In this document: positions 28,943-62,262 of the stretch, piece after piece
How positions within the stretch are numbered: the stretch's first letter is position 1
Layout of the letters: the number at the start of each line of letters is the position of its first letter
Assembly: GCA_028875225.1 (NCBI GenBank)
Contig: JAPPFB010000020.1
Span: 62,001-126,000 of the forward strand
DNA from: Chloroflexota bacterium
GTDB lineage: Bacteria > Chloroflexota > Dehalococcoidia > Bin125
Length of the DNA: 64,000 bases
Direction: 5' to 3'
Made by a program: the position numbers and the translations under genes
The notes under the pieces: model-generated
Seen by the model: only the letters and a program-made list of their open reading frames with translations
Databases searched by the model: none
Told to the model about the DNA's origin: nothing

Positions 28943-30840
28943 GGATCATCCTCCCCATCCTGGATGTACGTGACCGGCGATGTGCGCTGCTCCTGCTCCT
29001 CCACTTCGGCCGCCAGTGCGTCATCTTCAGGTTCGGCCTGGCTCTGTTCCTGCCCTGCGTTCGGCTTGAGCTCCGGCGCAGTACTCCAGGCGTCGGGATT
29101 GGCGACGTAGGCGGTCGGCGGAACACCGAGATACGGCAGTACCTGCGCCATCAGGTCGGAGAAGATCGGCGCGGCAACGATCCCCCCGTAGATCTCGCCC
29201 TGGGGACGGTCGATGCGAACCAGCACCACCACCCGAGGATCATTGGCCGGCGCAAATCCGGCAAACGACGCCAACGACTCACCGACCAGATAGCTACCCG
29301 CTTCGACGACATCGGACGTCCCGGACTTGCCGGCCACGGGCCAGCCGTCGACCTGCGCCGGATGTCCCAGGACGCCGTCCACAACGGCCTGCATCATCCA
29401 GGTCATCGTGCTGGCGGTCTCGCGACTGATGACGCGCGTTCCGGTTTGCGGCTCGAATCGTTGAACGCCTTCCTCGGTGATCACGGCAGTGACCAGGCGC
29501 GGACGGACCGGCACGCCGCCGCGGGCGACCGTCGCGTAGGCCTGGACGATCTGCAACGGAGTGACAGCGATTCCTTGCCCGAAGGAAGCGGTTGCCAATT
29601 GCGCCGGAGACCAGCGGATGTCGGTGGAGTCGGTCACTACCCCGCCGATCTCTCCGGGTAGGCCGGATTGCGTCGAGTCGCCGAAGCCGAACCGGTAGAG
29701 GTATTCGTAGAAGGTGCGGGCGCCCAACTGCTGAGCGACCCAGACAGAGCCAGTATTGAGCGAGCGCTGCAGTACCTGCGTCATCGTCTGCTCGCCGTGA
29801 TAGGAGAGGTCGAAGTTCTTGATCGTGCGATCGTCGATGACGACGGCGCCGGTATCAATGAACGTGGTATCGGGCGAGACGATCCCGGCGTCCAGCGCCG
29901 CGGCCATGGTGATCACCTTCATCGTGGAGCCTGGCTCGTAGATGTCGGATGCTGCTCGGCTGCGCAACAGGGCCATCGACTCCGGGCGGTCGAGGTCGAT
30001 CGTCATCGGGTTGTAGGTCGGCAAGGACGCCAGCGCGAGGATGTCGCCATTACGTGGATCCATCATGATGATGTGTCCACCCTGCCCTCGCCATTGCTCA
30101 ACCGCACGCTGGAGCGTCGTTTCGGCCAGCCATTGCAGGTTTCGGTCAATGGTCAGGACAACCGAGGCGCCCTGCTGGTAGGGCAGCTCGGCGCGGGGAC
30201 CAAAGGGAATCGGTTGGCCCAATCCATCGACCTCTTGGACCAGCAGACCGGATTCACCGCCGAGCAAGCCATCGAGTTGGTACTCGAGGCCCGCCAGCCC
30301 CTGTTCGTCTCTGCCGACCAGGCCAATGACCTGCGCGGCCATCGAGCCCTCGATGTAGCGCCGCGACGACGTCTTGCGGATCTGCACGCCATGTAGCGCC
30401 TCGGCATGAATCTGCGCGCCCAACGCGTTGGACAGGCCATAGGCGATCAAGGCGTCGTGACCTCCGCCGGCGTGAGTTTGCGCGGCCAGCGATAGCACCG
30501 CCGACTCAGGAGCGCGAAGCAGTTCAGCCAGCCGGCGCGACGCATCGGTGGGTTGGAACTCGGAACGCGCCCACAATCTGGTGTCGACGTGCACTTCCCA
30601 GGAATCGATCGATGTCGCCAGCGGAAAGCCGTTGCGATCGAGAATCGCGCCCCGGGGACCCCTGGTCTCGATCGCCCAGGTCCGATCCGCCTCTGTTTCG
30701 TGACGTTCGTGCTCGATCACCTGAATCATGACCAGGCGAACAACCACGACAACCGCGAGTGCTACGAATAGGGCGACAACCGCCCGCATCCGCCAGGTGG
30801 AGACGGATTCAAACCCGCTGTCCGACGGCCGACTCGCCAA
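28939..30840 (-). CDS. ftsI: penicillin-binding protein 2/3-type transpeptidase FtsI
   Basis: Septal class B PBP of 633 residues. One N-terminal membrane span (AVVALFVALAVVVVVRLVMI), a dimerisation domain with RGPRGAILDRNGFPLATSID, then the transpeptidase with SxxK in YEPGSTMKVITMA (about residues 305-308), SxN in QRSLNTGSVWVAQ and KSGTS near residue 507. The C-terminal tail is Glu/Gln-rich with no PASTA repeat. A TTG start is preferred: AAAGGG lies just upstream, and the nearby ATG is out of frame. Partner of FtsW. Confidence 0.96.
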   Translation of the reverse strand: MASRPSDSGFESVSTWRMRAVVALFVALAVVVVVRLVMIQVIEHERHETEADRTWAIETRGPRGAILDRNGFPLATSIDSWEVHVDTRLWARSEFQPTDASRRLAELLRAPESAVLSLAAQTHAGGGHDALIAYGLSNALGAQIHAEALHGVQIRKTSSRRYIEGSMAAQVIGLVGRDEQGLAGLEYQLDGLLGGESGLLVQEVDGLGQPIPFGPRAELPYQQGASVVLTIDRNLQWLAETTLQRAVEQWRGQGGHIIMMDPRNGDILALASLPTYNPMTIDLDRPESMALLRSRAASDIYEPGSTMKVITMAAALDAGIVSPDTTFIDTGAVVIDDRTIKNFDLSYHGEQTMTQVLQRSLNTGSVWVAQQLGARTFYEYLYRFGFGDSTQSGLPGEIGGVVTDSTDIRWSPAQLATASFGQGIAVTPLQIVQAYATVARGGVPVRPRLVTAVITEEGVQRFEPQTGTRVISRETASTMTWMMQAVVDGVLGHPAQVDGWPVAGKSGTSDVVEAGSYLVGESLASFAGFAPANDPRVVVLVRIDRPQGEIYGGIVAAPIFSDLMAQVLPYLGVPPTAYVANPDAWSTAPELKPNAGQEQSQAEPEDDALAAEVEEQEQRTSPVTYIQDGEDDP

Positions 30841-30865
30841 CGCATTGCCCTTTCGTCGTCGTCAT

Positions 30866-31378
30866 CTAATCGATGATCAGAACGTCGAACATCGCGCCCC
30901 ACACGGTTTGACCGGCGATCAGCGACGAATCCGACGAGGCGCCAATCGTTTGGTGGTCTGGCGGCAGGAATCTGGAAGGCAATATTCGAGCAGGAGGCGG
31001 TTGCTGTACCTCGAGGGAAAATGTTGGCCGAGCGGGAACCATGTTCAGTCGCTCCTCGGCCTGTTGTTTCACTCGCGCCAGCGAGCCGAGCTGGCCGATG
31101 TGTGCGGCGAGCGAACGAATCTCCGAGCGCAGGCGTTCGCGTTCGGCTTCGAGGACTCTCAGTTCCGTGCCGCTCTCGGTCACGCTCGAGACGCGAACCA
31201 CAGGCAGCGTGGCGGCGATGCACAATCCGAACACCGCCAACCATGCCCAGGCCGGCATGCGCCCGGTGTATCGCGGACGGCGCGGCAAGATTGGATGTGG
31301 CTGGGCGTGATGAGCATCGCTGGCTGCAGACGTAGGCAGCGACGCGTCGAGCGCCGTGCCTGGTTTGGCCGTTGTCAT
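30866..31378 (-). CDS. ftsL: FtsL-like bitopic division protein
   Basis: A 170-residue protein with a cytoplasmic tail, one membrane span (AWAWLAVFGLCIAATLPVVR) and an extracytoplasmic coiled coil (ELRVLEAERERLRSEIRSLA through QQAEERLNMV), ending in a Pro-rich extension. This is the FtsL/DivIC architecture, and the position between rsmH and ftsI is that of ftsL. Sequence similarity in this family is low, so the call rests on topology and context. ATG 31378 is chosen; a TTG at 31423 is possible. Confidence 0.85.
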   Translation of the reverse strand: MTTAKPGTALDASLPTSAASDAHHAQPHPILPRRPRYTGRMPAWAWLAVFGLCIAATLPVVRVSSVTESGTELRVLEAERERLRSEIRSLAAHIGQLGSLARVKQQAEERLNMVPARPTFSLEVQQPPPARILPSRFLPPDHQTIGASSDSSLIAGQTVWGAMFDVLIID

Positions 31379-31545
31379 TGGAACGCCGACTGCGTGAACA
31401 ATGTTCCCCGGTTCCCGCAGCAACGTGATCGCGTTGGGACGGCGCTTCCAGGGGGCTTATGGAGACTTGAACGCCAATGGCGCCAGCCGCCCGAATGAGA
31501 CGTACAGTGAGAGGCAGACACTCGCATTCGCTGACCGAATGCTCG

Positions 31546-31708
31546 GCAATCGTTGAGCGGATCGTGTGCGCAGACGGGGGGACGTGGTTCACGCTCGCCA
31601 TGGCTCAGGGCCACGGACAACCGTGTTCCAGTGGATTGGCGGCGGGGCTTCTCCTTCACTGTTGTTGTTGATGGGTTGTCCCCTGCACACGATCCGCTCA
31701 ACGATTGC
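31546..31708. repeat. perfect 24-bp inverted repeat flanking 115 bp, between rsmH and ftsL
   Basis: The 357-bp gap between rsmH and ftsL has no convincing gene. It contains a perfect inverted repeat: 31546-31569 (GCAATCGTTGAGCGG...GTGTGC) is the exact reverse complement of 31685-31708. Similarity extends imperfectly outwards on both sides (GTGAGAGGCAG near 31507 against GTCAGAGAGACAG in reverse near 31720-31732) and partly inwards. The size and symmetry suggest a MITE-like element or a large regulatory hairpin in the leader between the two genes. No target duplication could be recognised. Confidence 0.8.
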
Positions 31709-31781
31709 GGAGCGGCGCTGTCTCTCTGACGTTGCTCCTGTTCACTCCTCGTGCTGCATGATTGAGATGGTCGACGAGCCA

Positions 31782-32681
31782 TCAGATTGCCTCCGCAGCT
31801 CGAAGCCGGGCGCTGCGCGCGCGCGGATTTCGCTCCAACTCGACCGGTGACGGCCGCAGCACCCGTCGCGTCAACGTGCGGAAGCCGGGTGCTGTTCCCG
31901 ACGATTGGTCGCGCATGAATCGCTTCACGATCCGGTCTTCCAGCGAATGGAAGGCGATCACGACCAGACGACCGCCGATTCGCATGATGCTCCGGACCTG
32001 AGCAAGGAAAGCGGCCAGCCGATCAAGCTCACGGTTGACTTCCAGACGAATCGCCTGGAACACCCGGGTCGCAGGATGAACACGAGCGCCGGGCCGGATG
32101 CCGATGGCGTCGACCACACATTGCGCCAGCTGCGTCGTCGTTTCGATCGGACGTTGTCGGACGATCGCTCGAGCAATGCGGCGCGAGCGCCGTTCCTCGC
32201 CGTAGTCGTAGATCAGGTTGGCCAGGTCGTCATCCGGCCACTCGTTCACGATCTGGCGAGCAGACACGGTCTGGATATCGTCGGACGGACCCATCTGCAT
32301 GTCGAGCGGACCTTCGGCCTGGAACGAGAATCCGCGCTTCGGATCATCAAGTTGCAATGAAGAGAGGCCGAGATCGCAGAGCACGCCGTCCAGCGGCGTC
32401 AACCTGGCGTCCGCGGCAGTCCGTGGAGCGGCGTCGAGCCACGAGGCGCGAAGCTGCACCCGCGCGCCGAACGGCTCCAGGCGGCTGGCCGACAAACTCA
32501 GCGCGACGGGATCAGCGTCGGTGCCGAGCAGTTGTCCGTCCGGGTCTGACGCCCGCAGAATCGCTTCGGCGTGTCCGCCCAGGCCTATGGTCGCGTCGAG
32601 GTAGCGCTTGCCTGCCTCAACGTTGAGCAGACCGAGCGCTTCCTCGAGCATGACCGGAATGTGGATCGGCGAGGAAGTCAC
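31782..32681 (-). CDS. rsmH: 16S rRNA (cytosine(1402)-N(4))-methyltransferase
   Basis: RsmH (MraW) N4-methylates C1402 of 16S rRNA. The GTG at 32681 overlaps the mraZ stop (GTGA) and gives 299 residues beginning HIPVMLEEALGLLNVEAGKR. Motifs: YLDATIGLGGHAEAILRASD (SAM-binding), LCDLGLSSLQLDDPKRGFSF, NLIYDYGEERRSRRIARAIV, RVFQAIRLEVNRELDRLAAF and LVVIAFHSLEDRIVKRFM. Confidence 0.97.
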   Translation of the reverse strand: MTSSPIHIPVMLEEALGLLNVEAGKRYLDATIGLGGHAEAILRASDPDGQLLGTDADPVALSLSASRLEPFGARVQLRASWLDAAPRTAADARLTPLDGVLCDLGLSSLQLDDPKRGFSFQAEGPLDMQMGPSDDIQTVSARQIVNEWPDDDLANLIYDYGEERRSRRIARAIVRQRPIETTTQLAQCVVDAIGIRPGARVHPATRVFQAIRLEVNRELDRLAAFLAQVRSIMRIGGRLVVIAFHSLEDRIVKRFMRDQSSGTAPGFRTLTRRVLRPSPVELERNPRARSARLRAAEAI

Positions 32682-33148
32682 GGTGAATCCTCGTTGTGAT
32701 TCGATGGTTCGAGACTGTCGGCCAGCGCCTGGAGCAGTTCCCCGTAGGACTCGTCGATCTCCCCTTGCTCCGAGTGCCACGCGTCCGAGTTCCAGATCTC
32801 GAGGTACTCGCCCATGCCCACGATCGTCGTGTCGCCCGTGATGCTCCGTTCCTCGCGCATCTGGGGCGGGATCAGGATTCGTCCCTGACGGTCGGTCTCC
32901 ACGCGGCGCACGCGGCCAAAGAAACTCCTGGCCAGACGCCGGGCCGACGGTCGCAGCTTGTCGTTCACGGTGCGGACCCGCTTCTCGGCCTGATAGGCCT
33001 CGGGCGTGTAGAGCTCGAGTTGGCCGTCGGGTCCGGGCAGGAGATATCCGCCCTGTTCGAACAACCCGCGATAGGCGGACGGAATCGCCAGACGACCACG
33101 GTCGTCCAGTCGATGTTCGTATTCCCCGGTGAAGTCGACCGTCGCCAC
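32678..33148 (-). CDS. mraZ: transcriptional regulator MraZ
   Basis: AbrB-like DNA-binding protein that controls the division cluster. The 156-residue product starts with GTG. First SpoVT/AbrB-like half: GEYEHRLDDRGRLAIPSAYR; second half: RVRRVETDRQGRILIPPQMR. These duplicated D-x-x-G-R-hydrophobic-x-hydrophobic-P motifs define the family. It is the first gene of the cluster and has a matching TGGGG direct-repeat operator about 45-60 bp upstream. Confidence 0.96.
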   Translation of the reverse strand: MATVDFTGEYEHRLDDRGRLAIPSAYRGLFEQGGYLLPGPDGQLELYTPEAYQAEKRVRTVNDKLRPSARRLARSFFGRVRRVETDRQGRILIPPQMREERSITGDTTIVGMGEYLEIWNSDAWHSEQGEIDESYGELLQALADSLEPSNHNEDSP

Positions 33149-33192
33149 GTGAGAAGACCCTGTTGCTCTCTGTAGTCAACCTATGTCGCCTG

Positions 33193-33207
33193 CCCCACTT
33201 TTCCCCA
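33193..33207 (-). promoter_or_regulatory. MraZ operator (TGGGG direct repeats) in the mraZ leader
   Basis: On the minus strand the bases read TGGGGAAAAGTGGGG: two TGGGG boxes with start-to-start spacing of 10 bp, the arrangement described for MraZ-binding sites (TGGGN boxes 10 bp apart). A weak promoter lies just upstream on the same strand: TTGAAA (33255-33250) and TAGAGT (33231-33226) with 18-bp spacing, so the boxes would fall in the early leader. Autoregulation of the cluster by MraZ follows by analogy. Confidence 0.7.
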
Positions 33208-33417
33208 TTTCTGAGGACATCTCGCACTCTAATCACATAACGGCAGGGATTTCAAGACCATAACCAGGGAAATCGCGCCCACTTCCTGGATCTGGAGAAA
33301 TCCGCCGGCTCGCCAGGCGCGAGTTGGAGCCTGAACCCTCCCCAACCTGGCGGATCTGGTGGATAATGTGGATAGATTGCCCGGGGACGCCCAGCGCATC
33401 CAGGTAGAACGCGAGCC

Positions 33418-61972: not shown

Positions 61973-62262
61973 CCGGGTCCACGCATCAAGCGCGGGGTAT
62001 CAGACTGGATTGGGTGAGCGACGGGATCGATTGGGGGTGGCTGGATTCGATGGCCGAGGTCTGGGCCCCGCATCAAGTGCGGGGCATCGGAATGGATGGC
62101 GGGAGTGCTGGGCATGGGAATGGATGGCGGGAGTGCTGGGCATGGGAATGGATGACGGGAGTGCGGGGCATCGGAATGGATGGCGTGAGCGCGGGACATC
62201 GGATTGGATGGCGTGAGCGCGGGATATCGGATTGGATGGCGTGAGTCCGGGGCGTCGGATTG
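61972..62262 (-). repeat. REP-like palindromes with a tandem left-arm array (minus orientation)
   Basis: Read on the minus strand this is a 28-bp-type tandem array (plus-strand consensus GGGCATCGGAATGGATGGCG, then TGAGCGC; six or seven copies, 62085-62262). It ends in a full palindrome (core 62066-62084, CCCCGCATCAAGTGCGGGG) followed by the CAGACCTC flank, and a degenerate palindrome near 61974-62000. It has the same architecture as the array at 51.66-51.87 kb, with a longer unit. Confidence 0.8.

Follow-up and report, generated by a model that had tools for sequence, protein, structure and literature searches.

What is a perfect inverted repeat doing inside the dcw operon of a Chloroflexota bacterium, between the genes rsmH and ftsL? 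The question is raised by a window of 64,000 nucleotides (the whole stretch of DNA that was analysed, positions 62,001 to 126,000 of contig JAPPFB010000020.1; positions below are those of the window), for which the original prediction had described two exactly complementary arms of 24 bp, 115 bp apart, in what it regarded as the only large gap of the gene cluster. A mobile element of the MITE type, an attenuator between mraZ-rsmH and the genes downstream, and an inverted duplication had been named as candidates. The coordinates and the exactness of the repeat (31546-31569 and 31685-31708) were borne out by our analysis, and the arms were found to extend to 29 nt each, with 28/29 positions (97%) complementary across the spacer of 115 nt. 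The gap was not: the interval is filled by an open reading frame of 135 codons on the minus strand that had been missed, and that we refer to as the bridging ORF (Table 1).

The operon is encoded on the minus strand and begins, in the part considered here, with mraZ at 33148-32678, a name that rests on position as well as on a MraZ family match (E 1e-23) below the curated cut-off. The ATG of the bridging ORF shares bases with the stop codon of rsmH and its TGA shares bases with the ATG of ftsL. The stop codon of mraZ likewise overlaps the GTG start of rsmH (GTGA at 32678-32681, minus strand), so that from mraZ through rsmH and the bridging ORF to ftsL each frame overlaps the next. When the operon-strand interval 31424-31781 was folded, as had been proposed for this leader, it was more stable than all 100 of its shuffles (0/100 equally stable; z = -3.96), and the repeat formed its longest helix.

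Table 1. Positions of the genes and RNA elements at the rsmH-ftsL junction of the window. The 5' and 3' sides of helices are those of the transcript.
Feature	Position	Strand	Remarks
rsmH	31782..32681	-	TIGR00006, E 1.3e-85; GTG start taken from the overlap with the mraZ stop
Bridging ORF	31375..31782	-	135 codons; TGATG with the rsmH stop, ATGA with the ftsL start
ftsL	30866..31378	-	Weak family match (E 6e-5) below curated cut-offs, plus position and conservation
Structured RNA unit, 173 nt	31541..31713	-	Sharp conservation edges, covariation
P1, 5' arm (terminal stem)	31685..31713	-	29-nt arm
P2, 5' side, GGGGAC	31678..31683	-	Helix 95.8% paired
Unpaired core, AAGGAGAAGCCCCGCCGCC	31638..31656	-	A[AG]GGAG followed by a C-run, 22/22 copies
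P4, 5' side, CACG	31622..31625	-	Helix 97.5% paired
P5, distal hairpin	31599..31615	-	Weakest helix, 80.0% paired; 3/7 pairs changed on both sides
P4, 3' side, CGTG	31590..31593	-	Helix 97.5% paired
P2, 3' side, GTCCCC	31578..31583	-	Helix 95.8% paired
P1, 3' arm (terminal stem)	31541..31569	-	29-nt arm

The bridging ORF was compared among 16 genomes that carry the repeat-bounded unit: the window's own genome, G001-G014, which are 14 further members of its genus, and G017, which belongs to another genus of the family. An equivalent frame of 126-249 codons joins rsmH to ftsL in all 16 carriers (15/15 of the genus and G017). Its start is a TGATG overlap in 15/15 genomes of the genus and abuts rsmH in G017, where a TAA is followed by ATG, and its stop overlaps a start codon in the frame of ftsL in 16/16 carriers, as ATGA in 11, GTGA in 2 and TGATG in 3; in G004 the ORF stops five codons early and the overlap is with an in-frame GTG of the ftsL frame. 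The Shine-Dalgarno sequence of the bridging ORF is predicted at -9.5 to -9.9 kcal/mol in 15/16 carriers and at -5.9 in G017. That of ftsL itself is negligible in 8/16 carriers (+0.3 to -2.1 kcal/mol), including the genome of the window (-1.7), and moderate (-3.7 to -7.1 kcal/mol) in the other 8/16, in which translational coupling may therefore be dispensable.

The lack of stop codons inside an ORF is true by definition, and the informative fact is the position of the first stop, which in 16/16 carriers falls at a start codon in the frame of ftsL. Outside the hairpin units, the flanks of the genus (15 genomes) give the bridging frame a total of 1318 codons; read in the two alternative forward frames, they contain 11 stops in 1303 codons and 32 stops in 1322 codons, and shuffled flanks gave 39.1 stops (sd 6.1, minimum 20, 2000 trials), a figure that ignores the relatedness of the genomes. 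The distance from the ATG to the last P1 takes 12 distinct values among the 16 genomes, every one of them divisible by 3, as is the spacing between tandem copies of the unit in 6/6 genomes with a second copy, and the unit stays open in the reading frame of its host. Yet the flanks seem to evolve near-neutrally and the encoded protein hardly seems to matter: their pN/pS is 0.92 (bootstrap 95% 0.71-1.19) for the four closest independent pairs, with rsmH at 0.13, and their G+C content is flat across the three codon positions. Over seven pairs, including divergent ones with uncertain alignment, the flank value is 0.73 (0.63-0.85), which might reflect weak selection on the amino acids, and the values of individual pairs lie between 0.16 and 1.62. 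On the simplest reading the bridging ORF is a spacer that, we infer, is translated, and from which stops would have been purged, since a stop would leave ribosomes stranded short of ftsL or open the mRNA to attack by Rho.

The structure of the unit was drawn from the sequence of the window together with those of its relatives. One alignment (A1) holds 22 copies from the 16 genomes; a second (A2), which served for the pair counts and the covariance model, holds 20 of these and omits the copies G004b and G003b, which the model found at 135 and 145 bits. In A2, 92.5% of the cells are paired and compensatory change is seen at 17/41 pairs; in P1 the paired share is 94.4%, and 11/24 pairs have changed on both sides. 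On each of five measures all 500 shuffles, which do not model relatedness, fell short of the alignment itself, and a control with slid partners paired at 29-42%. Thirteen copies share the same length; their pairwise identity is 0.91-0.96 for the arms and 1.0 at positions 60-74 of the unit, declines to as little as 0.72 in the distal part, and is 0.26-0.61 outside the unit, with 0.63 for the interval that straddles its 3' edge. Synonymous divergence (pS) is 0.078 in the unit versus 0.378 in rsmH for the same four pairs. By comparison of its copies, then, the unit is constrained as an RNA with a conserved fold, and we consider it very probable that a structured RNA domain of ~165-175 nt lies between rsmH and ftsL, inside the bridging ORF. 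Searches of Rfam with positions 30800-33300 of the window and with four loci returned no match at E up to 1, RF01746 included.

In the unpaired core, read in the bridging frame, three bases separate AAGGAG from a following CCCC (31643-31656, minus strand), a pattern present with small changes in 22/22 copies and in a geometry that we take to be that of the prfB +1 frameshift signal. A programmed +1 frameshift at AAGGAG-NNN-CCCC was considered but is not put forward, since no conserved length was apparent by eye in the +1 frame after the site.

The history of the unit can be followed in part from its distribution. A DNA match placed it at the rsmH-ftsL junction in 13/15 genomes of the genus, the window's own included, and a covariance model (R1, built on the 165 nt from 31545 to 31709) found it in 16/20 genomes of the family. 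In samples of the class (16/393 genomes, 2/226 genera) and of the phylum (3/400 genomes), all carriers belonged to the same genus or were G017; the three samples overlap, the larger ones were searched under stricter filters, with 7 first-look candidates scored per genome in the class and phylum versus 144 in the family, and weak distant copies may be missed at these settings. A divergent form of the unit, which has additional loop sequence between P1 and P2 and differs in its core, is seen in G008 (L037:1212-1418) and G007 (L038:1230-1436); these copies escaped the DNA match and were detected by R1. A match in a Gemmatimonadetes stretch (L104, 1/13 loci) that contains no dcw genes was taken as a chance fit to the search pattern. 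Comparison of the interval among relatives, which had been suggested for the supposed gap, showed that bridge and unit occur in 16/16 carriers and are absent from the other four family genomes (G015, G016, G018 and G019), in which the ftsL frame follows directly after rsmH. On a tree of rsmH with 23 rows, the carriers fall on one side of a branch with support 84/85, and one change is found in 82% of the bootstraps. Since the carriers group in this way, a single gain of the unit is likely, if not firmly supported.

A second copy lies in tandem with the first in 6/16 carriers (G002, G003, G004, G013, G014 and G017). Among these second copies, G003, G004 and G013 have similar ones (81-88%) and those of G002 and G014 are 61-70% identical to them, a dissimilarity that suggests that several duplications took place. 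In G017, the only carrier outside the genus, the two tandem copies are 97% identical (L026:1490-1909), which might mean that the unit was duplicated in frame not long ago or that its copies evolve in concert. Tandem copies aside, each of the 16 carriers has one locus, and both DNA and protein searches of the window's own genome returned a single locus, so that the further copies expected of a dispersed element did not appear. The protein search returned a further weak hit here, in reverse orientation (E 0.009, with 4 stops), and this is just the palindrome.

The reading that we favour, to which we give a probability of roughly 0.6 with most of the weight on the anatomy, is that the locus specifies a structured domain of the dcw mRNA that is housed in a translated coupling spacer and acts in cis. 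Its parts, very probably, are a terminal stem of 24-29 bp, the GGGGAC/GUCCCC helix further in, a hairpin at the distal end and a core that is unpaired and near-invariant. Ribosomes that finish rsmH would restart at the TGATG, with its good Shine-Dalgarno sequence, and reach the ftsL start at the ATGA, so that the task of the bridging ORF would be to stay open and not to make a particular protein. Dense ribosomes would melt the domain, which would fold when ribosomes are sparse and might then tune or process the part of the transcript that leads to ftsL and ftsI. A possible route of processing is cleavage of P1 by RNase III; a perfect stem of 24 bp is long enough for this enzyme, which is encoded in the window's own genome. 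We infer that the domain acts in cis, probably as a control or processing site; for this mechanism, taken apart from the anatomy, the odds are about even at best. Of the candidates named at the outset, the attenuator, taken broadly as a control site in the mraZ-rsmH-ftsL transcript, comes closest to this proposal, but not as a terminator: a scan for loops of 3-8 found no terminator-like site in 31300-31900, and an intrinsic terminator was rejected for want of a G+C hairpin with a U-run in that interval. A bolder version, which we offer tentatively and consider rather doubtful, is that the ORF that need only stay open houses an RNA that binds a partner or ligand and that is free to fold once ribosomes are absent. 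The product of rsmH is a ribosome-maturation enzyme and that of ftsL serves in division, and the cell might in this manner read the flow of ribosomes from rsmH to ftsL and set the synthesis of the septum.

The chief rival to a domain that acts in cis is a small RNA that would be cut out of the dcw mRNA and act in trans, as E. coli FtsO is cut from ftsI, with the stem guarding its ends, the core pairing with a partner or binding it and the tandem copies raising its dosage. The unit is self-contained and sharply bounded, its unpaired core is invariant, and second copies in 6/16 genomes as well as the presence of RNase III would suit such an RNA, for which the dcw operon of E. coli provides a direct precedent in the passages of the reports that describe it (PMC6156199, PMC7815308). 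It is always found in the same operon, however, and nowhere else in the 16 carriers. CsrA (PF02599) was matched in 0/1 for the window's own genome and in 3/14 genomes of the control rings, and a search of the own genome for Hfq gave no match; a sponge RNA of the Csr/Rsm type and an Hfq-dependent small RNA were accordingly set aside as specific candidates. Sequences complementary to the core number 3 near-matches in the genome, one of them the unit itself, versus 3 for the reversed control, and antisense targets of the core were dismissed for this lack of excess. We regard a trans-acting RNA as unlikely.

It might also be supposed that the bridging ORF is an orphan, fast-evolving protein gene in which the hairpin is secondary and the unit of 53 residues is a protein repeat. 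Such a gene would account for the good Shine-Dalgarno sequence and the start and stop overlaps of the carriers (with the start abutting in G017), for insertions and deletions in multiples of 3, for the weak constraint over seven pairs (0.73) and for a mean column identity of 88% (13 rows) in the protein that the unit encodes. Within the unit, nevertheless, synonymous and other sites are frozen to the same degree (pN/pS 0.95), and its compensatory changes alter amino acids yet keep the pairs. The ORF, moreover, has a codon score of -0.36 bits per codon for the window and a negative one in 16/16 genomes (-0.10 to -0.35 across the 16), whereas five genes of the neighbourhood, on which the score was also trained, reach +0.17 to +0.37, and its protein is without a match in Pfam or NCBIfam. 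This explanation appears improbable to us.

A selfish element, one of the palindromes in coding sequence of which the Rickettsia RPE and the PARCELs are examples, would be tolerated as long as it remains in frame, and would explain a palindromic unit of ~170 bp that is open in its host frame and has in-frame tandem copies. The single locus in 16/16 carriers, a conservation far beyond neutrality and the absence of the unit from plasmids and viral contigs at the sensitivity used (0 plasmid matches with the ORF protein; 4 viral stretches that fit the pattern, 0 confirmed) speak against it, and we judge this already weak explanation very improbable. The same single locus, the missing plasmid match, the want of a confirmed viral relative and the strong constraint at the level of RNA leave little of the MITE that had been proposed. 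A local inverted duplication of no consequence is not supported either, since compensatory changes have kept the stem in two genera. Least credible of all is an element that acts as DNA, an invertible segment or a protein-binding palindrome, for which the near-perfect inverted arms and short spacer could be cited, but in all 16/16 carriers the interior keeps a constant orientation relative to the operon, G-U cells exceed A-C cells on the operon strand (G-U 53, A-C 19, other mismatches 42 over all pairs; G-U 28, A-C 8, other 18 in P1), the asymmetry that RNA, unlike a DNA palindrome, should show, and R1 scores the window copy at 179 bits on the operon strand versus 47 on the other, and for this constancy and strand bias the invertible segment was rejected.

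Features of this locus are individually reminiscent of several known systems. The E. coli dcw operon contains four decRNAs, in mraZ, ftsL, ftsI and murE, of which the one in ftsI, 173 nt long and renamed FtsO, sponges RybB and is 91% identical at wobble positions, compared with 67% for the whole of ftsI, according to the portions of the two reports concerned (PMC6156199, PMC7815308). As described there, these RNAs resemble the present unit in being structured, in lying within a reading frame of the dcw operon and in having frozen wobble or synonymous positions; unlike them, the unit lies in a near-neutral ORF found only between rsmH and ftsL and not in the gene of a known protein, and it is known from sequence, whereas excision has been observed for the decRNAs. 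With the RPE and PARCEL elements it shares a palindrome of similar size that is read in frame, tandem in PARCELs as well, but in the cited passages those elements are dispersed over many genes and the present unit is confined to one locus and constrained as RNA (PMC10969869, PMC2996958). UpsM of Rhodobacter sphaeroides is similarly an RNA tied to the transcript of a dcw cluster, but lies, by the account in the part of the source that treats it, in the 5' leader of the cluster and not between rsmH and ftsL (PMC5089854). The mraW RNA motif RF01746 is likewise a candidate structured RNA associated with mraW (rsmH), but is listed, where the source describes it, for Actinomycetales, and its model is without a match here at E up to 1 (PMC2864571). 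The unit also bears comparison, as a long inverted repeat in mRNA with a putative RNase III site, to those Correia elements that are described in the passage cited as cleaved by RNase III (PMC10969869).

The present unit, unlike Correia elements, is found at one locus. Structured RNAs in coding regions, in-frame palindromes and RNAs from dcw transcripts are thus already known separately, and we found in the open-licence literature no report of a structured RNA in a near-neutral open ORF between coupled genes, nor of the present RNA family, for which the 22 aligned copies and the covariance model provide a resource in the absence of an Rfam match. Correia elements are mobile and repeated. Set beside all of these systems, the locus is one in which two things that annotation usually merges come apart, namely a frame that is kept open by selection and a protein that is worth selecting, and it serves as a caution that a conserved open frame alone is not proof of a protein. 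If the bridging ORF is translated, it would represent a natural translated spacer that plays host to a structured RNA within one of the most highly conserved operons of bacteria.
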